Counted from the first letter of the stretch, positions 6,829 to 42,835 are shown. The stretch: 45,872 bases of DNA from Alphaproteobacteria bacterium (GCA_017642585.1 JAGCOR010000009.1:1-45872), one strand, 5' to 3'. Numbers and translations are program-made. The notes: a model not told the origin generated them from the letters alone.

Positions 6829-7629
6829 ATGCCAAGATGCAGTATGCAGGAAGCCATGAACAAAGCCAGCGTCTATATCGACAGACGCATAGAAGATGGC
6901 TCTAAGATTGCAATTACTTTGCCCCATGCGTCGCATATATTGATTATGGCCGTATCAGCATATTTAATCGCACGCCAAATCAAAAAACAAACCAAAGATG
7001 AAACAATAGATTTAGAAAAGGCCTTTGTTTGCGGTTTGTTGCACGACATAGGCCGTTATATTGTTGACGAAAGAGAATCTAAATATCCACATACTATCGC
7101 TGGTTATGATCGTTGTAAAAAATTAAAAATCCCCGGTGTTGCGCCGGTTTGTTTAACTCATGCTATTTTGGATAAAGCCACACATGAAGAATACCCAGAT
7201 TACACCCCTGAACAATTAAAATTTGTGAACGACAAAATGTCAAAAATAAATCGTTCTTTCTATGATGATTTGACAATGTTGGTCGATTTACATTGTCGTG
7301 GGGATCAGGTTTTTCATATTCATGACCGATTGGAAAAAAATATAAAAATGTATAACATCCAAATGGATAATTATTATGACAAATATATGGCTTTATATAA
7401 CAAATTTACATCCAAATATAATGTAGATATATACAGAATTTGTCGCTTTGTCGCAGACCACAGAAAAAGCATATTTAAACATTTAATGCCATATTGTCAT
7501 GGATGGTTGCGTTATGTTTGCGGGGATAAATCTGTTGCCAAAGACCACGTAGCATATTCGCGCAATGCAAATATTGCACAATATTGGAAAGACTATTTGG
7601 CACAACAAACCAAAGTAATTACAAAGTAG
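6829..7629 (+). CDS. HD-domain phosphohydrolase-like protein
   Basis: The 266-residue protein has a central HD motif CGLLHDIGRY (His72-Asp73) preceded by His33/His36 and followed by further His residues (HAILDKATHEEYPDY, HIHD), the pattern of metal-dependent HD hydrolases. Substrate is not deducible; nucleotide or phosphoester hydrolysis is usual for the superfamily. It follows obg by 2 nt, with the obg 3' end supplying AGGAAAG as ribosome-binding site, so it is probably translationally coupled. Its 3' end overlaps the convergent MurU-like gene by 11 bp. Confidence 0.75.
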   Translation: MPRCSMQEAMNKASVYIDRRIEDGSKIAITLPHASHILIMAVSAYLIARQIKKQTKDETIDLEKAFVCGLLHDIGRYIVDERESKYPHTIAGYDRCKKLKIPGVAPVCLTHAILDKATHEEYPDYTPEQLKFVNDKMSKINRSFYDDLTMLVDLHCRGDQVFHIHDRLEKNIKMYNIQMDNYYDKYMALYNKFTSKYNVDIYRICRFVADHRKSIFKHLMPYCHGWLRYVCGDKSVAKDHVAYSRNANIAQYWKDYLAQQTKVITK

Positions 7630-17779: not shown

Positions 17780-18511
17780 ATGATATTTAATGATAAATTT
17801 GCGCAAGCTTGTGTTTCAGATTCTTTCGTAATTAGTATCAATCGCAAAGATAATATGTTCAATAATTTGGTAACTGTTACACAAATGTATGGGGATGAAG
17901 GTTTTGAACAATTTGATAGAAAAATCAGTAAAGATAAATTGCGTTTCAAAAAACCTTTCGTTGCAGATATGATGTTTGATGTAATGCATGCTGTGATTGA
18001 ATATCAAGATATGTGGCGCCATATGATTGCACCAATCGATTATACAAAACCAACAATAGAAAATGGCGAAAATTATGTTAAAAACAGTATTTATCTGGGA
18101 ACATATTTAAACAGAGAAACAAAAGGCAAAACAAAACCATATGACAGGGATGCAGAATTACAAAGATTACAACAGGATAAACAAATTCCTGTACCTGTAT
18201 CACCAACAAATTTAGATGTTGTTTTGGAAACCCGCAGAATAGATAAACCAAATGGTTTGCATTATGTATATAATTTATTGATAAAACCAGAAGATATCAC
18301 AAACGGATTTAATCCTTATGGGTTTGCTACGGTTGAAATTACTGCGTTTGTTTCAAAAACAGATGCAGATTTTTATGCACAAAGTTCTAAATTCTTTAAC
18401 GAATTCGCGAAAGATAAAAAAGAACAATATGAAGCATACAGAAAGGTTAATCAAACCAGAATAAATTGCTTTAACAAAATAACTGATGCAATTAAAACAA
18501 ACAAAAAATAA
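17780..18511 (+). CDS. Unknown protein, 243 aa
   Basis: No family is recognised. The protein is soluble and basic, without signal or TM segment. It contains an internal antiparallel-looking stretch (RIDKPNGLHYVYNLLIKPEDITNGFNPYGFATVEITAFV) and a helical C-terminal tail. AAAAGGAC precedes the ATG at 17780; an upstream in-frame ATG at 17756 overlaps the tgt end and lacks this support. It follows tgt by 4 bp and precedes a membrane protein by 13 bp, so it may be expressed with either. Confidence 0.65.
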   Translation: MIFNDKFAQACVSDSFVISINRKDNMFNNLVTVTQMYGDEGFEQFDRKISKDKLRFKKPFVADMMFDVMHAVIEYQDMWRHMIAPIDYTKPTIENGENYVKNSIYLGTYLNRETKGKTKPYDRDAELQRLQQDKQIPVPVSPTNLDVVLETRRIDKPNGLHYVYNLLIKPEDITNGFNPYGFATVEITAFVSKTDADFYAQSSKFFNEFAKDKKEQYEAYRKVNQTRINCFNKITDAIKTNKK

Positions 18512-18524
18512 AGGGAGGACAAAA

Positions 18525-19511
18525 ATGGCAAAGAAAAAAGATATCGAAGTTATCGATATGCACGGTGCAAAAACCGTAAAGAAAAAAACATCTGTTATAA
18601 CATGGACTAAACGTATATTTGCAATAATTTCAATTATATGGATTGCGTTTATTGCGTGGTTTCCATTATATGTAAAAAACACATATTCGGCACCAATTAA
18701 AAAATCTATGGTTGTATCTTTGTTCTTTGATTTGCAAAGAAATATTGCGAAACAATATGAACGTATGTTGGATGGAATCAAAGATGCAATAAATCTTGAA
18801 AAACCAATTGGTATTGCGATTGAAAAGGTCAAAATTGTTGAATCTGGTGTTGATAAAGTAACAGACACAACTGCTAAAGCTAAAAATCAAACAAACAAAG
18901 TCAAAGAAGAAACAAACAAAGTTTCTAAATTGACGGGTTTGGTGAATAAATTTGGTGTAAAAACATCGGGTGTAGACAAAGCGGTTGCTGATACAAACAA
19001 AATGGTTGCAGCGGCCGATAAAAACATAGCCAAAGTTGATAATGTTGCGGAAATGGTAAATAAAAAATTAGATTCTGTGAAAACTGAATTGGTCAAAGTT
19101 TCCCAAACAGAAGTTGATAAAATGGTTGATGAAGCAATCAAAAAACAAATTGATAAAAATTCAGGTGGATTGGGTACAACTTTGTTGACTAATTATGGTA
19201 TTAAACACGTTTACCCATGGCGCCCATCTTCGTGGGGTGTAGCAACCAAGATTTACAATGATTTGGAAAAATCAGACGTCAGTGTTGTCAAAGCTTTGAC
19301 AGACATGGTCAATCATAACTTTAACATGGTCGCATGGGTTATGGTTATATTGGTCTGGGTTGTTGGTCTGTTGGCTTGGTTGGTGGCATTCAAAAAGGTT
19401 AAAATGTTCCTGTCGCCATTTATCGTTTGCCCACGTTGTGGACATACATTTGCGGACAGACGTACCGCTATGGGCTTGTTAAAGGTATTTCAACCATGGA
19501 AATGGTTTTAA
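18525..19511 (+). CDS. Two-TM coiled-coil membrane protein with C-terminal zinc-ribbon-like motif
   Basis: The 328-residue protein has TM1 at about 29-50 (IFAIISIIWIAFIAWFPLYV). A long region rich in Lys, Val and Thr with heptad character follows (about 95-210, many repeats of the type DKA..DTNK). TM2 is at about 268-288 (WVMVILVWVVGLLAWLVAF). A short C-terminal tail carries CPRCGHTFADRR. A strong GGGAGG ribosome-binding site precedes the ATG at 18525. The topology places the coiled coil outside or inside as one large loop. I do not recognise a family. A terminator follows. Confidence 0.65.
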   Translation: MAKKKDIEVIDMHGAKTVKKKTSVITWTKRIFAIISIIWIAFIAWFPLYVKNTYSAPIKKSMVVSLFFDLQRNIAKQYERMLDGIKDAINLEKPIGIAIEKVKIVESGVDKVTDTTAKAKNQTNKVKEETNKVSKLTGLVNKFGVKTSGVDKAVADTNKMVAAADKNIAKVDNVAEMVNKKLDSVKTELVKVSQTEVDKMVDEAIKKQIDKNSGGLGTTLLTNYGIKHVYPWRPSSWGVATKIYNDLEKSDVSVVKALTDMVNHNFNMVAWVMVILVWVVGLLAWLVAFKKVKMFLSPFIVCPRCGHTFADRRTAMGLLKVFQPWKWF

Positions 19512-19538
19512 GATAACCTGTTAAATGTCCAAAAATTG

Positions 19539-19568
19539 AAAATATCGCCGATTTTGGCGATATTTTTA
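19539..19568 (+). terminator. Terminator after the coiled-coil membrane-protein gene
   Basis: Stem 19540-19549 / 19556-19565 (AAATATCGCC), loop of 6, then T-rich sequence. It lies 28 bp past the stop. Confidence 0.75.
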
Positions 19569-19648
19569 TAACAAAAATATTGACATTTTTTAATTTTTGT
19601 GTTAACTTTTAGTCTAAACGCGTAGAAATTAAAAGGACAGATACGGCG

Positions 19649-20575
19649 ATGAAACGCAAATCGGGTTTTAGTTTGAACAGCAGACATTTCCCACAACCTG
19701 TATTGCAGGGAAAACTGATAACCGAACAAGAATTGGGTGATATTATGTATTCGCCAACTGTTCGTATGGAAAATGAAGTCAAATACCAAGAAAGCAAACA
19801 GCCAAAAAAATTCACACAAACAGATGTGGAATGTATGCTGTATGAACCGTGTTCCCGCGAACCCGGGTCTGTGTTTAATGATGATTCAAACAGAAACAAA
19901 GAATTATATTCCAGATATGTTCAAAACAATTTTACTAAATCACACCAAAAACAAATTAGAAACACGTTGATTACGCTGTTTTGTTTGTTGGAAACAGGGT
20001 TGAATTTGGGATTGTTTGTTGCAGAAGATACCAACAAATGTCAAATTGTTCGCGATATATGGAATCCTGTATCAAATGGCAATTATTTTACATATACACT
20101 GGAATGGGAATATGATGCAAACAAATGTGGTAAATTTGCGCCAAATTGGTTGTGGTATGTGAATGTTTCATTGTTGTTTATTATTGCGTGTTCATGTGTT
20201 CGTTCTTTGATTATACCGGGAATAAAAAACAGAAAATCTATGAATCACCAAAAACGCGTGATAGATGCAATGCAAGAATTAAAATTATTAGGATGTACAT
20301 ATAAATTGAACGGAAGGGCTTTTGAACATGTAATCAAGGTATGTCCTGAAATCATAGCGAATATGGCTGCAGATGAACGCGCATATTTTGATATGTTAAT
20401 GGATGGAAACATAGATGTTGTTAATAACAAACAATATCGTGATATGGCTGTTCATGTCATGGCAGGCCATTTAAGAGAACATCCAAGAGATTTACAGAAA
20501 ATAATGGATGCAATCAATGATAAAACATTGCCTGCTGAATTATTATCAGAATTCGTTCAACGTGAATATAAATAA
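19649..20575 (+). CDS. Two-TM membrane protein, tandem paralogue A
   Basis: The 308-residue protein has a cytosolic-looking N-terminus (about 1-108) and TM1 around 109-128 (LITLFCLLETGLNLGLFVA). A Cys-containing loop of about 40 residues follows, then TM2 around 170-190 (VSLLFIIACSCVRSLIIPG). The helical C-terminal domain contains CPEIIANMAADERAYFDML, MAVHVMAGHL and EHPRDLQKIMDAI. That domain is clearly homologous to the next gene product. AAAGGAC precedes the ATG by about 10 nt. The family is unknown to me. Confidence 0.75.
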   Translation: MKRKSGFSLNSRHFPQPVLQGKLITEQELGDIMYSPTVRMENEVKYQESKQPKKFTQTDVECMLYEPCSREPGSVFNDDSNRNKELYSRYVQNNFTKSHQKQIRNTLITLFCLLETGLNLGLFVAEDTNKCQIVRDIWNPVSNGNYFTYTLEWEYDANKCGKFAPNWLWYVNVSLLFIIACSCVRSLIIPGIKNRKSMNHQKRVIDAMQELKLLGCTYKLNGRAFEHVIKVCPEIIANMAADERAYFDMLMDGNIDVVNNKQYRDMAVHVMAGHLREHPRDLQKIMDAINDKTLPAELLSEFVQREYK

Positions 20576-20595
20576 GAAAACCAAGGGGTAAAGAT

Positions 20596-21510
20596 ATGAA
20601 AAAATTATTTCCAGGTGTTACAAACCAAGATATAAATAAACAAGACCAAGAAAATACTGCCAGGGCACAATTCTTTGCAACACAAGAAGAAATTGAACGC
20701 AGTATGTTCGATATAGAAGAAAGAGAAAGACAAGAACAAGCAGCTATTTTGGCCAGAAAACGTGAACAACAAGAAGCACAAGCCAAACGAGATCAAGAAA
20801 TCAACGAAGTACAAAGACGCAGAAATAATGCACATTTGTTGTATGGTAATGGAGATACTGATAAATTACCAAAACGCGGCAGAAATTTGAAATTCTGGGT
20901 GGCAGCCAATGTACAAATGAATGTGTTTTTGTTTTTGGCTTATTTAATCATTGCTGGCGAATTTTATGACAGCAGATTTTGGGGTGTTGTCAATGAAGTA
21001 TATGATCCAACCCCCAGAATAAGAACCGAAAAGGGATTGGCCGTGGATGTTGCTCGTGATAAACCTTTCTTCTATGGAAATGCCGCTTTTGTGTGCGCAT
21101 GGATGGTATTTACTGCATGTGTAGCCAACGGCAGAAGAAAAAAAGATAAAGCAACCAGACAACGTGTTAAATCCAGACATGACACCATAGATATGATGTT
21201 GGATATCAAAGACGAAAAAGCGTATGGCAGAAGAGTTCGTTTGAATGACAAATCTATGGAAAAATTAATCAATATGTGTCCAGAAATCATATCAAATATG
21301 TCAGCAGACAACCGTGTGTATTTTGATATGTTGTTAAATGGAGAAATAGAAATAGCCAATAATGAAACATTCAAAAATATGGCAATTTCTGTTATGCACG
21401 GACATTTAAGAGCGCATCCAGAAGATTTGAAGAAAGTCATGTCCACATTTGATGAAAAATCATTGGTTGAAATTTTATCATACATGTACCAACGTGGAAT
21501 AAGACGTTAA
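20596..21510 (+). CDS. Two-TM membrane protein, tandem paralogue B
   Basis: The 304-residue protein begins with a Gln/Glu/Arg-rich coiled coil (about 20-80). TM1 is at about 100-118 (VFLFLAYLIIAGEF) and TM2 at about 158-176 (FVCAWMVFTACV), with a 40-residue loop between. The C-terminal domain CPEIISNMSADNRVYFDML, MAISVMHGHL, HPEDLKKVM aligns residue for residue with paralogue A, 20 bp upstream. The N-termini are unrelated, so the conserved part is the TM pair plus C-terminal domain. AGGGG precedes the ATG. A terminator follows. Confidence 0.75.
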   Translation: MKKLFPGVTNQDINKQDQENTARAQFFATQEEIERSMFDIEERERQEQAAILARKREQQEAQAKRDQEINEVQRRRNNAHLLYGNGDTDKLPKRGRNLKFWVAANVQMNVFLFLAYLIIAGEFYDSRFWGVVNEVYDPTPRIRTEKGLAVDVARDKPFFYGNAAFVCAWMVFTACVANGRRKKDKATRQRVKSRHDTIDMMLDIKDEKAYGRRVRLNDKSMEKLINMCPEIISNMSADNRVYFDMLLNGEIEIANNETFKNMAISVMHGHLRAHPEDLKKVMSTFDEKSLVEILSYMYQRGIRR

Positions 21511-21526
21511 TGGTATCCAAATAAAC

Positions 21527-21553
21527 CAAACCGCCCGTTTGGGCGGTTTTTGT
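21527..21553 (+). terminator. Terminator after paralogue B
   Basis: Stem 21528-21536 / 21541-21549 (AAACCGCCC), loop GTTT, then TTTTGTTT. Confidence 0.85.
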
Positions 21554-21570
21554 TTCCTATATAAACCTTT

Positions 21571-21595
21571 ACAAAAAAACACCCCGAAGGGTGTT
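21571..21595 (-). terminator. Terminator of tRNA-Gly
   Basis: On the minus strand AACACCC-TTCG-GGGTGTT (21578-21595) is followed by a T run. It has an extra-stable UUCG tetraloop. Confidence 0.85.
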
Positions 21596-21601
21596 AAATT
21601 C

Positions 21602-21678
21602 TGGTGCGAGCAAAGGGGCTCGAACCCTCGACCTCAACCTTGGCAAGGTTGCGCTCTAGCCAACTGAGCTACGCTCGC
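21602..21678 (-). tRNA. tRNA-Gly(GCC)
   Basis: The 77-nt cloverleaf has a GCGAGCG/TGCTCGC acceptor (one G-U), D stem GCTC/GAGC, anticodon stem CAACC/GGTTG with loop TTGCCAA (anticodon GCC), and a TTCGAGC T loop. The CCA is encoded (21602-21604). It reads GGC and GGU codons. Confidence 0.95.
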
Positions 21679-21746
21679 ATTGCGGAATGTATTTTGACAT
21701 ACTTTTTTCCATAATGCAAGTATTTTTTATGCCTTTCTTCAAACCA

Positions 21747-23078
21747 CTATAATGTATTTTCTTTCTCGGCCTTGGCTTTGAAATTAAACAGATGGTCAAA
21801 GAAAGATTCTATCGGTTTTTCCGGGTTCTTTTTGATTGGTTTCGTAATTGCTTTTGGTTGTCCAATCGTTATTTCGGGATGGTATTTTTCCACCAATTTA
21901 TCCATATGTGGATAATGTTTCAATATCAATTTCACAACTTTAGTAGATAAATTACGGTTGTTGGCTAATATTGCCTCTGCGACCTGGCAATTTGTCGTTG
22001 AATTAAAGAAATCGGTTTTAATCAAAGCAATTACCACCGGTTCAGTTAAATATTTGAATGAGCTGCTTTTGATTTTGTTATTCAATACGTCATCAACAAC
22101 AGCGATATATGATTTTACAGATTCAAAGGGTGTTGTTAATACACCGCTGGTAAAATCTCTTACAGAACGCGGATTATGAATCAAATACGCAAAAGTATTT
22201 TCCAAATTTAAATTTGATAATTTAAAGAAATTCAAATCATGAAATGTATCTATGGCGATTGGTTGTAAATCACTTGGTATTTGTTTTACAACATTTGGGA
22301 AATAGGTTCTGATATATTGCAAAACATATTTGTTTTTTATAAAGGCTTGTTCAATAACATTTCTTGAAAAATGTGAATTTTTTGTAAACAAAGTATTTGC
22401 AGCTTTTAATACAACCGCTGGTAATTCAGTGCAATAATTTGTGAATAAATTATTTAAAGCATATATTATTTCTTCATCTGTTAATTTAATGTCGTTATTG
22501 CCCATATAATTGATAATTGCGGCCAATACTGCCACAGATTTGTTTTTTTGACGTGTTTTTTGATAATTCATAATTGAATAATTCAAAACATGTCTTGGTA
22601 TAGTTATATAAAAATCAGCCATGCGCTTTGCAAAATAATCAATAGATGTGTTTAATGTAAATTCTTTGAATGTATCATCAGACATTTTGATAAAGTTCTT
22701 TAAAAACAAATCAAAATAATCGCGGGTCATAGGATCATAATTGATTTCATTATGACGTTTGAATATTGCCCGTTGCACATCTGGATTGTTAAACCAAGTA
22801 CCAAAAACGACAGGCAACAAATCTTTGAACAATCTGTATACAGCCAAAGATTTATTAGGGTGTTTTGGTTTAACATTTGTGAATAAATATATTAATTCTT
22901 TGGATGATATATCATCGCCATAATTTTTTATGGCTTCATGGTTTTCTAAAATATAGTCCAAATGTTGTGGGGTTAAAATGCGCGCACCTTCACACATCAT
23001 AAGAGGACTATGATTATGATTATATGTTTTTTGTGTTTTTGGTTCAGGTCCTTCTGGGCGACTGTCACGAGATGTCAT
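21747..23078 (-). CDS. Uncharacterised all-helical protein, 443 aa
   Basis: No family is recognised. After a polar N-terminus (TSRDSRPEGPEPKTQKTYNH) the protein is predicted to be a continuous run of helices with regularly spaced Asn/Ile/Leu, consistent with a HEAT- or TPR-like solenoid, and it ends in a basic tail. There is no signal peptide or TM segment. An ATG at 23114 is in frame, but AAAGGA lies 8 nt before the ATG at 23078, which I take as the start. It is divergent from the RelA/SpoT-like gene with about 127 bp between. Confidence 0.65.
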   Translation of the reverse strand: MTSRDSRPEGPEPKTQKTYNHNHSPLMMCEGARILTPQHLDYILENHEAIKNYGDDISSKELIYLFTNVKPKHPNKSLAVYRLFKDLLPVVFGTWFNNPDVQRAIFKRHNEINYDPMTRDYFDLFLKNFIKMSDDTFKEFTLNTSIDYFAKRMADFYITIPRHVLNYSIMNYQKTRQKNKSVAVLAAIINYMGNNDIKLTDEEIIYALNNLFTNYCTELPAVVLKAANTLFTKNSHFSRNVIEQAFIKNKYVLQYIRTYFPNVVKQIPSDLQPIAIDTFHDLNFFKLSNLNLENTFAYLIHNPRSVRDFTSGVLTTPFESVKSYIAVVDDVLNNKIKSSSFKYLTEPVVIALIKTDFFNSTTNCQVAEAILANNRNLSTKVVKLILKHYPHMDKLVEKYHPEITIGQPKAITKPIKKNPEKPIESFFDHLFNFKAKAEKENTL

Positions 23079-23205
23079 GAAATATCCTTTGTTTTGTTGA
23101 ATAAACTGTAACACGAACTTTTGATTTTGTCAACACAAAGGAAAATATTAAAGTTGCGTGTTGAAAAATTTAGTATATCATAGGGTTAAGCTCAGAAAGG
23201 AATCT

Positions 23206-24603
23206 ATGATGAACGATACAAAACAGGATGTTTTGGAACTTGTAAAATCAAACGAAGAAAAATGTTTAAGTGTTATCAAAAATGCCCAAGAATCAGGGCG
23301 TATAGATATGGTAACGCGTGAATATTTGGAAAGATTATATTCAAATTCTATGGATTCTTTTCGCAAGGTGTTTTTATACATCGGTAAATGTTTTGGTGCG
23401 CCAAAAGCATCTGTGCGTGCATATAATTACGAAACAGATTCTATTATAAACAAAGCAATCACGATTTCAGAGATAAATCCATTATCACCATATTTGGTTA
23501 ATCATAGATTGGATACAGACCCCATGCGTAATCAATTTTTTATGACCGATAACGGCCATAAAATTGATACAGCGGTATCTTCTATCGTTACAGTTATTGT
23601 TGGTGCACAAAAGCATGTAAATCGCGCTATCGATAAAATAACAAATAAATACTATCCAAAATACACAGATGAAGTTTGTGATGCTGTTTACAAGATAATT
23701 GCAGATACGGGACGTGTTGCGTCTGCGGTTGCAGTTTGTGAAAAAATTCGTGAATTATTTGCAAAAACATTTATATCGGATGCTTCTGTGGCGGTGTTGG
23801 GAATTATCGGTACAGAACACAGACAAATTGCTGCAGATTTGGTGCGTGAATTGGATAAAATCAGACCACCATACAAACGATTAAGAGATGTGTGGCGTAT
23901 AAAATGTTTGTTCGATTTGGTTCCCCAGGCGCGCACTTTTATCAGCCGTATTTGCGATACATGGCCTGATAATATTTTAGAGGTTCGTGATAAATTCTTT
24001 GATGTATTAAATCCGCGTGGTTATCGTGATGCTAAATTGATATTGAACATAGGCGATAAAGATAAAATTATTCCAATGGAAATTATCTGCCAAGTGCGAA
24101 CATTTTTTGAATTTGAACATAAAACACACAATGCTTATGAAAAATCCAGAAAAAGTGCAACTACTTTGACCAAGATAGAAGAACAAACCGAATTAATACA
24201 CACCCAAGGTGTTAAAAAATACAATAAAATGATAAATTATTGTGTTGCAGATTTGTTCGACAGAATAGGTTGGAATATTTTATACAGTTCTGGTAATGAA
24301 GATATGTTATTCGAAGGGTTCCCACGCCTGTCTGACATTTATTATCCGCAAAAGGTGGTTGATGACATATTAAAGAAAGTCGATAATGCGGTGAATAACG
24401 AAGTGTTCTTTGTAGAAAACGCACCTTTGAAATTGAACAAAGACCAAGAAATTCGTATTTTCAGATGGATGGCGCGATTTATTTTAATATCTGCAATGCC
24501 TTTTATTGGTGATATGTCAGAATGTTTTGATGATACAATGTCCGGAAAATTCTTCTCGTTTATAATGAACGAATTACAACGTTATTATAAAAACGCAGAA
24601 TAA
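23206..24603 (+). CDS. Divergent RelA/SpoT-like (nucleotidyltransferase-fold) domain protein
   Basis: The 465-residue protein has no HD hydrolase domain and no TGS/ACT domains. Residues about 215-318 resemble the RelA/SpoT synthetase core: RLRDVWRIKCLF (Asp228, the position of the synthetase D-x-x-G-x-R), then NPRGYRDAKLIL (272-280), then MEIICQVRTF (Glu292, Gln296, Arg298) and FEFEHKTHNAYEKSRK (His305, His308). The G-loop is poorly conserved (DVWRIK for D-I-x-G-I-R). Alarmone synthesis is therefore uncertain; other uses of the fold include toxic synthetases. The flanking helical regions are unique. AAAGGA supports the start at ATG 23206 (or 23209). Confidence 0.5.
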   Translation: MMNDTKQDVLELVKSNEEKCLSVIKNAQESGRIDMVTREYLERLYSNSMDSFRKVFLYIGKCFGAPKASVRAYNYETDSIINKAITISEINPLSPYLVNHRLDTDPMRNQFFMTDNGHKIDTAVSSIVTVIVGAQKHVNRAIDKITNKYYPKYTDEVCDAVYKIIADTGRVASAVAVCEKIRELFAKTFISDASVAVLGIIGTEHRQIAADLVRELDKIRPPYKRLRDVWRIKCLFDLVPQARTFISRICDTWPDNILEVRDKFFDVLNPRGYRDAKLILNIGDKDKIIPMEIICQVRTFFEFEHKTHNAYEKSRKSATTLTKIEEQTELIHTQGVKKYNKMINYCVADLFDRIGWNILYSSGNEDMLFEGFPRLSDIYYPQKVVDDILKKVDNAVNNEVFFVENAPLKLNKDQEIRIFRWMARFILISAMPFIGDMSECFDDTMSGKFFSFIMNELQRYYKNAE

Positions 24604-24734: not shown

Positions 24735-25079
24735 ATGCGTCAGGGAAAGGTTAAATGGTACAACGGTAAAAAATGTTTTGGATTTATTACACCAGATACT
24801 CCAAATGAAAATGGAAACACAGATGATGTATTTGTTCATTCCAGTGCATTAAAGGCAGCAGATATTCGTTTCTTGAATGAAAACGATATCGTTGAATTCG
24901 AAGAAGAAGTTCGTAACGATAAATTATCTGTTACAACATTAAAATTGATTCAACGTGATGAAGAATCTGCCAGAAGATTTCATGAACGTCGTGCAGAACG
25001 CCGTCGTGCAATAGAAGACAGAAAAAATCGTGAAGAACACAAAGAAAAACGTTCTGGATTTGCTTTCTGGAAAAAATAA
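24735..25079 (+). CDS. Cold-shock domain protein with basic C-terminal tail
   Basis: The 114-residue protein has an N-terminal OB-fold cold-shock domain (about 1-70). RNP1 reads KCFGFITP (usual KGFGFI; Cys replaces Gly) and RNP2 is DVFVHSSAL. It binds single-stranded RNA or DNA, presumably as an RNA chaperone. A 45-residue Arg/Glu/Lys-rich helix follows (ESARRFHERRAERRRAIEDR). An upstream in-frame ATG (24684) has no ribosome-binding site, whereas GAAAGGA precedes 24735 (MRQGKVKWY, the canonical start). Confidence 0.9.
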   Translation: MRQGKVKWYNGKKCFGFITPDTPNENGNTDDVFVHSSALKAADIRFLNENDIVEFEEEVRNDKLSVTTLKLIQRDEESARRFHERRAERRRAIEDRKNREEHKEKRSGFAFWKK

Positions 25080-30820: not shown

Positions 30821-31678
30821 ATGTCAAAAAAGAAATATGAAATATCAGATGAAGAATTAGCCACAAGATTTGTGCGTGATGAAAAGTTAATGAAGGCAGA
30901 TTTGTTTAACATATTGCCTTTGATGGATAAACGCGAAGCATACAGCCAAGAAATAAATAGTAAACTTGGGCGTTCTTTAAATATTCTTGATGTTCAAACA
31001 GAAGACAGATTAAACAAACAAAAAGACAAAAATGAAAAGAAACAGGAAGCCAAAGGCAATTTGGTCTATGTCTTGATTGTTCTGGGATTTTTGGCTGCAG
31101 GTATCAGTATTTGCAATCATTTTGTGGGCGATATGGAAAACAATCCACCGCGCAAAACAGAAAAAGTAGATGAAATGCCAACTCATCCACGTACTGCGGT
31201 TATTATTACAATCTGTTTGATAATGGGAATAGCATGTGGATGGATATTAAGCGGATCCGTAGGAAATAAAACATGGTCAACAAAAAATGCTGATGAATTC
31301 TATAAACGTTTAGTTGTTCGTTATTTCGACGTGGCCCAAGCAAATAACCCAGAAATAACAGAAAACGGTATTGTCACATTTAATCCTGAAATGTCTAAAT
31401 TGATTTATGGATTATTGGCAATGAATTTATCAAAAAGAGATATGGCTAAATTAGATAATTTGGCTTTAACAATTGAATCTCAATTTGATACACAAGAATA
31501 TGGCTTTGGTGATAATTTAAGAAGAATTGATATTGCTATGCACCAGGCAACACAAATAGTAGAAAAAGCATTAAAGAAGAACCCAGAATTACAACGCGTT
31601 ATAAATGATGCGTATATGGGCCAAATACCAATGTCATTAGTTGTTGCCAAAGGTAACAAACAAAACTCTGGCAGATAA
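30821..31678 (+). CDS. Two-TM membrane protein, 285 aa, possible distant relative of the 19.6-21.5 kb pair
   Basis: It has a charged N-terminus (about 1-75), TM1 at about 79-97 (LVYVLIVLGFLAAGISICNHF), a loop of about 35 residues, and TM2 at about 126-148 (AVIITICLIMGIACGWILSG). A helical C-terminal domain ends ALKKNPELQRVIND. The layout, and the final NP-x-LQ-x-V/I motif, recall paralogues A and B (HPRDLQKIM, HPEDLKKVM), but overall similarity is weak. AAAAGGA precedes the ATG. A terminator follows directly. Confidence 0.7.
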   Translation: MSKKKYEISDEELATRFVRDEKLMKADLFNILPLMDKREAYSQEINSKLGRSLNILDVQTEDRLNKQKDKNEKKQEAKGNLVYVLIVLGFLAAGISICNHFVGDMENNPPRKTEKVDEMPTHPRTAVIITICLIMGIACGWILSGSVGNKTWSTKNADEFYKRLVVRYFDVAQANNPEITENGIVTFNPEMSKLIYGLLAMNLSKRDMAKLDNLALTIESQFDTQEYGFGDNLRRIDIAMHQATQIVEKALKKNPELQRVINDAYMGQIPMSLVVAKGNKQNSGR

Positions 31679-31712: not shown

Positions 31713-31789
31713 TGGCGCACCCAGCGGGATTCGAACCTGCAATCTCCGGCTTCGGAGGCCGACGCATTATCCAGTTGTGCTATGGGTGC
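31713..31789 (-). tRNA. tRNA-Arg(CCG)
   Basis: 77 nt: acceptor GCACCCA/TGGGTGC, anticodon stem TCGGC/GCCGG with loop CTCCGAA (anticodon CCG, reads CGG), T stem GCAGG/CCCGC with loop TTCGAAT, CCA encoded at 31713-31715. Confidence 0.93.
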
Positions 31790-40886: not shown

Positions 40887-40915
40887 TTGAACCGAACTTG
40901 ATTTTGTGGTATAAT
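40887..40915 (+). promoter_or_regulatory. Promoter of the 636-aa gene
   Basis: TTGAAC (40887-40892), 17-nt spacer, TATAAT (40910-40915). The ATG at 40925 begins 9 nt later and has no Shine-Dalgarno. Confidence 0.6.
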
Positions 40916-40924
40916 TGTCGCGAA

Positions 40925-42835
40925 ATGGGAACAGATTTTTATACATCTTTCAAAGAAAAATCGAATATGTTGGATACATTGCACAAGGTTGTGATATCCG
41001 GCGAATTTCCTATGTCTGAATTATTGAATAAATTTTACGACATATTGGATGACATGGCGGTAAATCCTGATTTGTTGCCGAAAACCATAGATTTATATTA
41101 TTCGATTTTGTCGCGCATGGAATACCCGGACGTCCAACAATCGATAGAATATACATATGACAGATTTCCCACAATTTTCCTGCGCAGTTCATATTTTCTG
41201 GCAACATTGGCGGAAACATTTCCTGAATCTTACGAATACATATTTGATAAACTATCAAAAGACCCAAAAAATTATGGGGATACGGCTAAATCTATAATAC
41301 CAATATTGGCTAAATTAACGATAAACGCCCCCGCAAAACACAAGGATGCTTTCTTGGATAAATTCTTCAAGATTGCATATGCAAAACACCCGACGCATTA
41401 TGCCACGATAAAGGATAATATTGTATCATTGTTTATAAATATGCCGGACAAGCGTGATTTGTTATTTGATAAAGCGGTTAATTTTTTTGATTTGAACAGT
41501 GCGGTTGAATTCACAGACATTATGCTTATGCTGTGTTCCAAAATGAACGACAGGGTCGATAAAACCCTTGATTTTATGGTTAAAAACATGGAAAACCCCA
41601 ACATGAAACCGGAAACATTGGCTGATGTTGTTGAATATGTTGGACGATTCGCACACCAACCAGAATACGCGGAAAAAGTGGAAAGTGCATTACGTGCAAT
41701 TAAAAAATCGAAACACGTTAGACATTTGACGGTTTTGCGTGCATTTGCGCGCCTGAACGGGAACACAGATTTATTGCGCAGTTTTGTTTTCTTTGGTGAA
41801 CGTGTTCCAAAATCGCCTGAATACCCGAACAGTTGGCGTGACGCGTGGTCAATACCACCCGACGAAACATGTGTGTTTGTGTTGGGCGGAAATGGGGCGG
41901 TTTTGCCGAAACAGGCAAACGGGTATTTATCCCCGATTGATTCTTTTTTGCAATCTCAACATGTGCCGGGTGTTAAGTTATATGCAGAATACCATGATTT
42001 TGGCGACCAAAAACGTGATCCGGTGCACGCGTTTAACGATGCAACCGCCCGTATTGCTTTTATGAAACAACACGGACGCCGTGCGAAACAGGAAATCAAG
42101 CCGAATTTTGATGATTTGCACCCACAATATGTCGACCAAATATTCAACAGTGTGTTTTTACCGCGCATATCACGTGACGGCAAAAGATTAGATTTCGAAA
42201 CGGCATGTAAAAACATCCGCAATATCACTGTGGTTGCGCATTGCCATGGTGGATATACTTTCCTGAAAATCGAAGAATTGATGCAACAGGCCTTGAAAGA
42301 TTTGGGATATTCGAATTTTGAACGGCTGGAAATTCAAAAACAGTTATTATGTATCGCGCATGCGCCATATTGCCCATTGGGAATATCTAAATCTACGATG
42401 ATAAGCTTTATATCGGCATCAGATTATAATATGCACAGTTATAATCAATTCGAACAAATGTTGCGTAATTTGCCGAAAATACCGCTGTCTTGGTTTGCGG
42501 GGCAACACGGTAATGTGTTTATCGCGAAAAAATTATATACCCCAAAATATCATACTGATACCGACAGCCCCGAACATAACTTTTATGGATATGATATAAA
42601 AGCAGAAGAATTAACCCCATACGGTGCAATAATGACACGATTTGCCGGAAATGCCTTGAAAAACGGTTTGGCTGGGGCAATGGCGGGCAAACCAATTGGC
42701 ACGGTTCGTGAATTGGTAACTGGTGGCGACCCGGAATTAGAGCAAGAATTTGACACTGCAACCCGACATGGCGAACGCATGTATGGCGATATGGTTGCAA
42801 ATGCAATAGAAAACGCCCATAAATACCACCGATAA
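40925..42835 (+). CDS. Large protein with HEAT-like N-terminus and Cys-nucleophile alpha/beta-hydrolase-like motif
   Basis: The 636-residue protein (from ATG 40925, just after the promoter; a start at 40898 would lie inside the promoter) has two parts. Residues 1-300 are a helical solenoid of HEAT or ARM type. The C-terminal half has a nucleophile-elbow-like sequence VVAHCHGGY with Cys440 where serine hydrolases have Ser (small-x-nucleophile-x-small), and a later His candidate in SPEHNFYGY. The family is unknown to me. Compared with neighbours it uses more GC-ending codons by eye. It lies between two isolated promoters and a tRNA gene, so it is likely monocistronic. Confidence 0.7.
   Translation: MGTDFYTSFKEKSNMLDTLHKVVISGEFPMSELLNKFYDILDDMAVNPDLLPKTIDLYYSILSRMEYPDVQQSIEYTYDRFPTIFLRSSYFLATLAETFPESYEYIFDKLSKDPKNYGDTAKSIIPILAKLTINAPAKHKDAFLDKFFKIAYAKHPTHYATIKDNIVSLFINMPDKRDLLFDKAVNFFDLNSAVEFTDIMLMLCSKMNDRVDKTLDFMVKNMENPNMKPETLADVVEYVGRFAHQPEYAEKVESALRAIKKSKHVRHLTVLRAFARLNGNTDLLRSFVFFGERVPKSPEYPNSWRDAWSIPPDETCVFVLGGNGAVLPKQANGYLSPIDSFLQSQHVPGVKLYAEYHDFGDQKRDPVHAFNDATARIAFMKQHGRRAKQEIKPNFDDLHPQYVDQIFNSVFLPRISRDGKRLDFETACKNIRNITVVAHCHGGYTFLKIEELMQQALKDLGYSNFERLEIQKQLLCIAHAPYCPLGISKSTMISFISASDYNMHSYNQFEQMLRNLPKIPLSWFAGQHGNVFIAKKLYTPKYHTDTDSPEHNFYGYDIKAEELTPYGAIMTRFAGNALKNGLAGAMAGKPIGTVRELVTGGDPELEQEFDTATRHGERMYGDMVANAIENAHKYHR

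Follow-up and report, generated by a model that had tools for sequence, protein, structure and literature searches.

The window analyzed here is an entire contig of 45,872 nt (G000:C15) from a 968-kb genome, 89 % complete, of Candidatus Enterousia (Alphaproteobacteria, order Rs-D84), a gut lineage with a tiny genome. Rs-D84 is a reduced-genome lineage, for which an obligate symbiotic or parasitic life has been supposed (PMC12306168). The window contains a block of six ORFs, designated P1 to P6, with tgt on one side and a cold-shock gene on the other (Table 1), as reported in a preliminary description. The genes had been regarded there as unrecognised, and all six products indeed fell below the cut-offs of Pfam and NCBIfam; scans with Pfam, NCBIfam, PHROGs and PADLOC returned coiled-coil noise for P2 only, and no family for the others. 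A tRNA-Gly(gcc) gene inside the block, missed in that description, was identified with ARAGORN.

Table 1. Features of the P1–P6 block and of its cold-shock neighbor; positions are counted from the first nucleotide of the window.
Feature	Position	Strand	Description
P1	17756..18511	+	251 aa; fast-evolving relative of the ca. 115-aa c7 protein, in the same slot
P2	18528..19511	+	327 aa; TM, coiled coil, TM and cytosolic CPRCG tail (predicted); core gene of the genus
P3+P4 stretch	19517..21595		Replaces 2147 bases (c21 and lysS) of L140; junctions from blastn
P3	19649..20575	+	308 aa; two TM segments and a C-terminal domain of ca. 100–110 aa; variable cargo, absent from L140
P4	20596..21510	+	304 aa; paralogous to P3 in part; the C-terminal domain they share recurs in scattered loci
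tRNA-Gly(gcc)	21602..21678	-	Between P4 and P5 (ARAGORN); pivot of the patch between P2 and lysS/P6
P5 stretch	21731..23140		L140 has 16 bases here; junctions from blastn
P5	21747..23114	-	455 aa, predicted all-alpha; two other genomes have very divergent relatives in this position, with equal orientation
P6	23206..24603	+	465 aa (ORF open from GTG at 23158); divergent protein with RelA/SpoT-superfamily synthetase fold
P6 K136..R140..K144	23611..23637	+	Putative pyrophosphate-donor (ATP) motif; nearly invariant; 4+4 spacing as in KxxxRxxxK of L252
P6 D228	23887..23889	+	Putative Mg-binding Asp; invariant in ten aligned sequences including L250–L252
P6 Y273-R-D-A-K277	24022..24036	+	Putative counterpart of the G-Y-x-S-x-H acceptor site; GYRDLK in L252
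P6 E292	24079..24081	+	Putative catalytic Glu; invariant; paired by hhalign with the E of ExQ in L252
Cold-shock-domain protein	24735..25079	+	Basic tail; PF00313, 8e-15; usual downstream neighbor of P6

In the genus, a small protein of ca. 115 aa, c7, is encoded between tgt and P2. A single-query search of 35 other genomes yielded no relative of P1 at blast level; similarity to the c7 family was detected over the C-terminal half of P1 (hhalign E 6.5e-7, hmmsearch 1e-10), and its dN/dS versus the closest relative, L140, was 0.62. P2 was found by single-query search in 21 of 22 genomes of the genus and, at 23–29 % identity, in 9 of 14 genomes from other families. It is the protein whose coiled coil, flanked by two TM segments, and Cys-pair tail had been noted earlier: this tail corresponds to a CPRCG motif that, like a QPW motif, is invariant in the P2 alignment, and a CPxCG tail is retained in the other families. 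With a dN/dS of 0.11, P2 is, as judged from sequence, an order-wide predicted membrane protein with a CPxCG tail. The assignment of both P1 and P2 to a conserved tgt side is the best explanation for these data.

The composition of the central part of the block was clarified by comparison with L140, a locus from horse faeces whose flanking DNA is 93–96 % identical to that of the window. L140 carries P1, P2, the gene for a 100-aa membrane protein (c21), an inverted lysS, the tRNA-Gly gene, P6 and the cold-shock gene, and blastn detected neither P3, P4 nor P5 in this locus. The 135-bp stretch containing the tRNA-Gly gene is 99 % identical in the two sequences, so that the tRNA stays in place and the DNA to its left and right is exchanged. 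The alternation of homologous with non-homologous segments makes a simple misassembly improbable. The same tRNA-Gly gene lies inside the interval from P2 to lysS/P6 in most of the sampled relatives of the clade, with changing neighbors.

P3 and P4 had been taken for tandem membrane paralogues, which holds for their C-terminal ca. 110 residues (44 % identity) but not for the remainder, which is unlike. The shared domain, with the family motif GHLxxHPED, defines a local family of 12 hits that extends to about nine further loci, and a single-query search of 59 genomes returned P4-like proteins in 8. A tRNA gene lies within ca. 0.6 kb of the gene containing this domain in 5 of 10 loci, a small sample in which the proximity is suggestive. 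For P5, a single-query search retrieved nothing beyond the window's own genome; phmmer identified relatives of 458–460 aa and 25 % identity in L146 and L151 (E 6.7e-7 and 2.4e-5), situated just upstream of lysS-P6 and in the same strand as P5, and in L151 the tRNA-Gly gene is on the far side of the P5 relative, as in the window. Divergent relatives in the same slot thus exist for both P1 and P5, whose classification as orphans was withdrawn, suggesting that these slots hold very fast-evolving genes. P5 had also been described as an all-helical solenoid; the protein is predicted to be all-alpha and its AF2 model consists of helices, but with a pLDDT of only 61, which we judged too weak for a fold search. 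P4 and P5 showed no match to phages or viral contigs, so that a phage origin is without evidence. P3, P4 and P5 are best explained as rapidly exchanged genes in a hypervariable patch centered on the tRNA-Gly gene.

Gene maps of 41 loci gave queA-tgt-(c7)-P2-[variable]-lysS-P6-cold shock as the usual gene order. In many relatives P2 and P6 are separated by kilobases or lie on separate contigs, several of them with unrelated neighbors. The proposal that the block is an undescribed module was therefore not sustained: almost all genomes of the genus carry P2 and P6, P3, P4 and P5 are independently absent, and joint gain and loss of the six genes was not observed. Independent absence in the gene neighborhoods of relatives is what the preliminary description itself had named as refuting its proposal. 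The best explanation is a patchwork in three layers, namely tgt-P1-P2, the variable patch, and P6 with the cold-shock gene.

The constant neighbors of P6 are others. Of 80 fetched loci, 78 have a gene for lysyl-tRNA synthetase (LysRS) directly upstream of P6 and in the same strand, the two genes being separated by a median of 14 bases; the enzyme is of class II in 77 of these loci and of class I in one. Only L140 and L141, which count among the nearest relatives of the window, lack this arrangement. Downstream, the cold-shock gene comes next to P6 in 62 of 78 loci. P6 is linked to LysRS and the cold-shock gene, and not to P1–P5. No class II LysRS was detectable in the window genome, whose class I LysRS is encoded on another, short contig (L120, G000:C8:1-3156), so that the customary partner of P6 has disappeared from its locus in this genome. 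In L120, a fragment of a repeat-rich, surface-like protein precedes the class I LysRS. A class I LysRS also occupies the place upstream of P6 in L099, L153 and L237, the last from another genus; this represents an in-place swap of unrelated enzymes, class I for class II, in at least three lineages. Our literature search found no paper on an operon of LysRS and an alarmone synthetase.

P6 was present in 33 of 35 genomes of the genus in a single-query search, and a profile search across 201 genomes of the order identified it in 163, which all come from one family: it occurs in 145 of 156 Enterousia genomes and in 18 of the 27 remaining genomes of that family, against 0 of 18 from other families. 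Its relatives belong to Candidatus Enterousia and to uncultured Alphaproteobacteria of animal guts; outside the family, a profile search of 385 genomes across the class returned only three remote matches, and comparison of P6 with plasmids produced none. By its dN/dS of 0.075, P6 is under purifying selection. Two of the remote relatives, L250 and L251 (465 and 514 aa), are from another alphaproteobacterial family, and one of them adjoins a flagellin-like gene. L075 (genome G019) contains a 249-aa N-terminal piece of P6 and a full copy, with the gene for a 2387-aa protein between them; similar giant proteins are encoded at P2 or at the lysS-P6 junction in L091, L107 and L141.

The resemblance of P6 to RelA/SpoT proteins, already proposed in the preliminary description, was borne out both by its predicted fold and by a sequence bridge. 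The AF2 model of P6 (pLDDT 83.7) retrieved CapRel, SAS1 and SAS2 first in Foldseek, the top matches being all alarmone synthetases or CapRel (prob 1.00), with the CapRel/toxSAS tRNA pyrophosphokinases (7ztb, 9erv) on top (E 2.7e-4). VIA-align gave Z values of 10.6–11.2 with the small alarmone synthetases RelP/RelQ (PDB 6ewz, 5ded, 6fgk; rmsd 3.5–3.9 over 185–191 residues), 9.6 with Tas1 (6ox6) and 9.1 with CapRel/toxSAS. These matches hardly covered the C-terminal part of the model, where a counterpart of the CapRel regulatory region would be sought. At the level of fold, the P6 model belongs to the RelA/SpoT synthetase superfamily.

The bridge is provided by the third remote match of the P6 profile, L252, a 210-aa member of PF04607 RelA_SpoT (E 2.8e-9) from the Tas1-like branch (E 1e-12 versus Tas1). 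Once its helical insert was removed, the P6 core aligned to L252 by hhalign with E 1.6e-10 and a score of 67.5, whereas 100 column-shuffled controls reached at most 20.7. The alignment pairs KxxxRxxxK, D228, NPRGYRDAK (Y273–K277), E292 and THxxYExxR, and the motifs KxxxRAxxK, LxDxxR, GYRDxK, E..QxR and THxxYExxR are common to both proteins. Among ten divergent sequences, D228, R231 and E292 are invariant, and K136, R140, K144 and K277 nearly so. The superfamily residues (donor Lys pair, Mg Asp, acceptor Tyr and catalytic Glu) are therefore present in P6, their positions being placed by sequence and not by superposed coordinates; from family knowledge and spacing, we take these sites to correspond to RelSeq K243, K251, D264, Y308, H312 and E323. 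Two positions depart from the superfamily pattern: the Gln of ExQ is I294 in P6, and the His of GYxSxH is K277, although a Lys at this last position is common to P6 and the PF04607 member L252. P6 itself did not match PF04607, either whole or with the insert removed, and we thus refer to it as a divergent relative and not as a member of this family. There was likewise no profile-profile signal between P6, with or without the insert, and the canonical RSH of the sister families. A match of the P6 core profile to the YwaC structure in the PDB disappeared when L252 was left out of the profile, and was discounted.

P6 shares the synthetase fold with small alarmone synthetases, whose Lys, Asp, Tyr and Glu positions map to invariant or nearly invariant residues of P6; unlike them, it extends to 465 aa, with an additional domain at the N terminus, a helical insert that separates the donor and Mg motifs, and a C-terminal helical region, besides lacking a profile match and showing the changes of Gln and His. 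Unlike Tas1, which is secreted as an effector and has an immunity partner, P6 is the product of a core gene beside that of LysRS. In contrast to CapRel/toxSAS, P6 has no toxin-antitoxin layout: instead of an adjacent antitoxin and a sporadic distribution, it shows LysRS as its neighbor in 78 of 80 loci and presence in 145 of 156 genomes of the genus. The canonical bifunctional Rel/RSH of the sister families (ca. 720 aa, L220–L231) have the synthetase fold of the superfamily in common with P6 but, unlike these long proteins, P6 has no Pfam match to HD hydrolase, TGS or ACT regions.

The distributions of P6 and of canonical RSH within the order are mutually exclusive. PF04607 was not found in 56 distinct genomes of the P6 family, including the near-complete G060 (99 %) and G142 (100 %). 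Of 14 genomes from sister families, 12 were found with this same profile to encode canonical RSH of ca. 720 aa. Loss of the RSH system is known among intracellular and reduced-genome bacteria (PMC3153485). Since absence of RSH and presence of P6 fall on one lineage, they count as one evolutionary event. G067 and G070, two well-assembled genomes of the same family, contain neither P6 nor PF04607, indicating that P6 is dispensable. In the window, an HD-domain protein (6829-7629, + strand; PF01966, 2.1e-7) is encoded directly after obgE; in a lineage without canonical RSH, it is worth checking as a nucleotide hydrolase.

The observed fold, homology bridge, conservation, gene order and distribution of P6 lead us to consider it probable that the block is a patchwork in which P6 is a divergent, putative pyrophosphokinase of the RelA/SpoT superfamily, coupled to LysRS. 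From these observations we infer its activity, product and physiological role, as well as co-transcription with lysS. P6 would bind ATP through K136 and K144 and Mg through D228, and would hold a purine acceptor at Y273–K277; E292 would then move pyrophosphate to this acceptor, and the product would be an alarmone-type nucleotide or, with lower probability, a tRNA modified at its end. Among the relatives, the 14-base gap would tie P6 production to the expression of LysRS, so that P6 would report on or tune translation, a role that would be set in a lineage where canonical RelA/SpoT was not found. P6 belongs to a separate conserved group of LysRS, P6 and cold-shock genes, with the LysRS function being served in the window genome by the class I enzyme encoded elsewhere. 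More tentatively, and as a proposal that we would hold possible but would not bet on, the family may run its starvation or translation signaling on P6 co-transcribed with LysRS, having given up RelA/SpoT, with the pairing surviving the swap of LysRS class.

The main alternative is that P6 is catalytically dead and its pocket senses nucleotides or tRNA, regulating LysRS or translation. The replacement of both the ExQ Gln and the acceptor-site His, the failure of P6 to match RSH or SAS profiles directly, and the precedent of RSH loss in reduced-genome bacteria (PMC3153485) agree with this idea; nevertheless, the catalytic Lys, Asp and Glu are invariant or nearly so in 41 sequences and in the remote relatives, which exceeds what ligand binding alone needs, and we regard a dead enzyme as rather unlikely. 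It is still less probable, to the point that we would be surprised by it, that P6 is a tRNA-directed pyrophosphokinase, acting on tRNA ends like toxSAS/CapRel and kept in check by LysRS as its partner. Foldseek ranked CapRel first and the usual neighbor of P6 encodes a tRNA-binding enzyme, but P6 is core, slowly evolving, usually single-copy and without an antitoxin-like neighbor, unlike toxSAS, and its Z value is higher with small alarmone synthetases (11.2) than with CapRel (9.1). A single functional module, in which P1–P6 would work jointly at the membrane, is hardly credible. In its favor, the six genes are neighbors in the window, and P2 and P6 often lie within a few kilobases of each other in the genus, but every gene between these two is independently present or absent, the constant partner of P6 is lysS and not P4 or P5, and L140 refutes the module unless its contig is misassembled.

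If P6 is indeed an active pyrophosphokinase coupled to LysRS, it would represent a previously undescribed alarmone (or tRNA-modifying) system coupled to an aminoacyl-tRNA synthetase. Stringent-response chemistry would have been kept after loss of the standard gene, in a form that no current profile detects, and alarmone-type chemistry would be tied to a single aminoacyl-tRNA synthetase. Calls of reduced-genome bacteria as 'RSH-free' on the basis of PF04607 may miss divergent synthetases. P6 is an expressible protein, with named residues for testing.

The rest of the block is an example of how a tRNA-centered variable patch can mimic a module in one genome. Elsewhere in the window, a two-TM protein without known family (30821-31678, + strand) converges on a tRNA-Arg gene (31713-31789, - strand), in a layout like that of P3-P4 and tRNA-Gly; tested as a possible paralogue of P4, this protein showed no significant similarity to it. 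Likewise, a gene adjoining tRNA-Ser(gct) (40898-42835, + strand) codes for a 645-aa protein without a Pfam match, with apparent helical repeats and a distinct C-terminal half.
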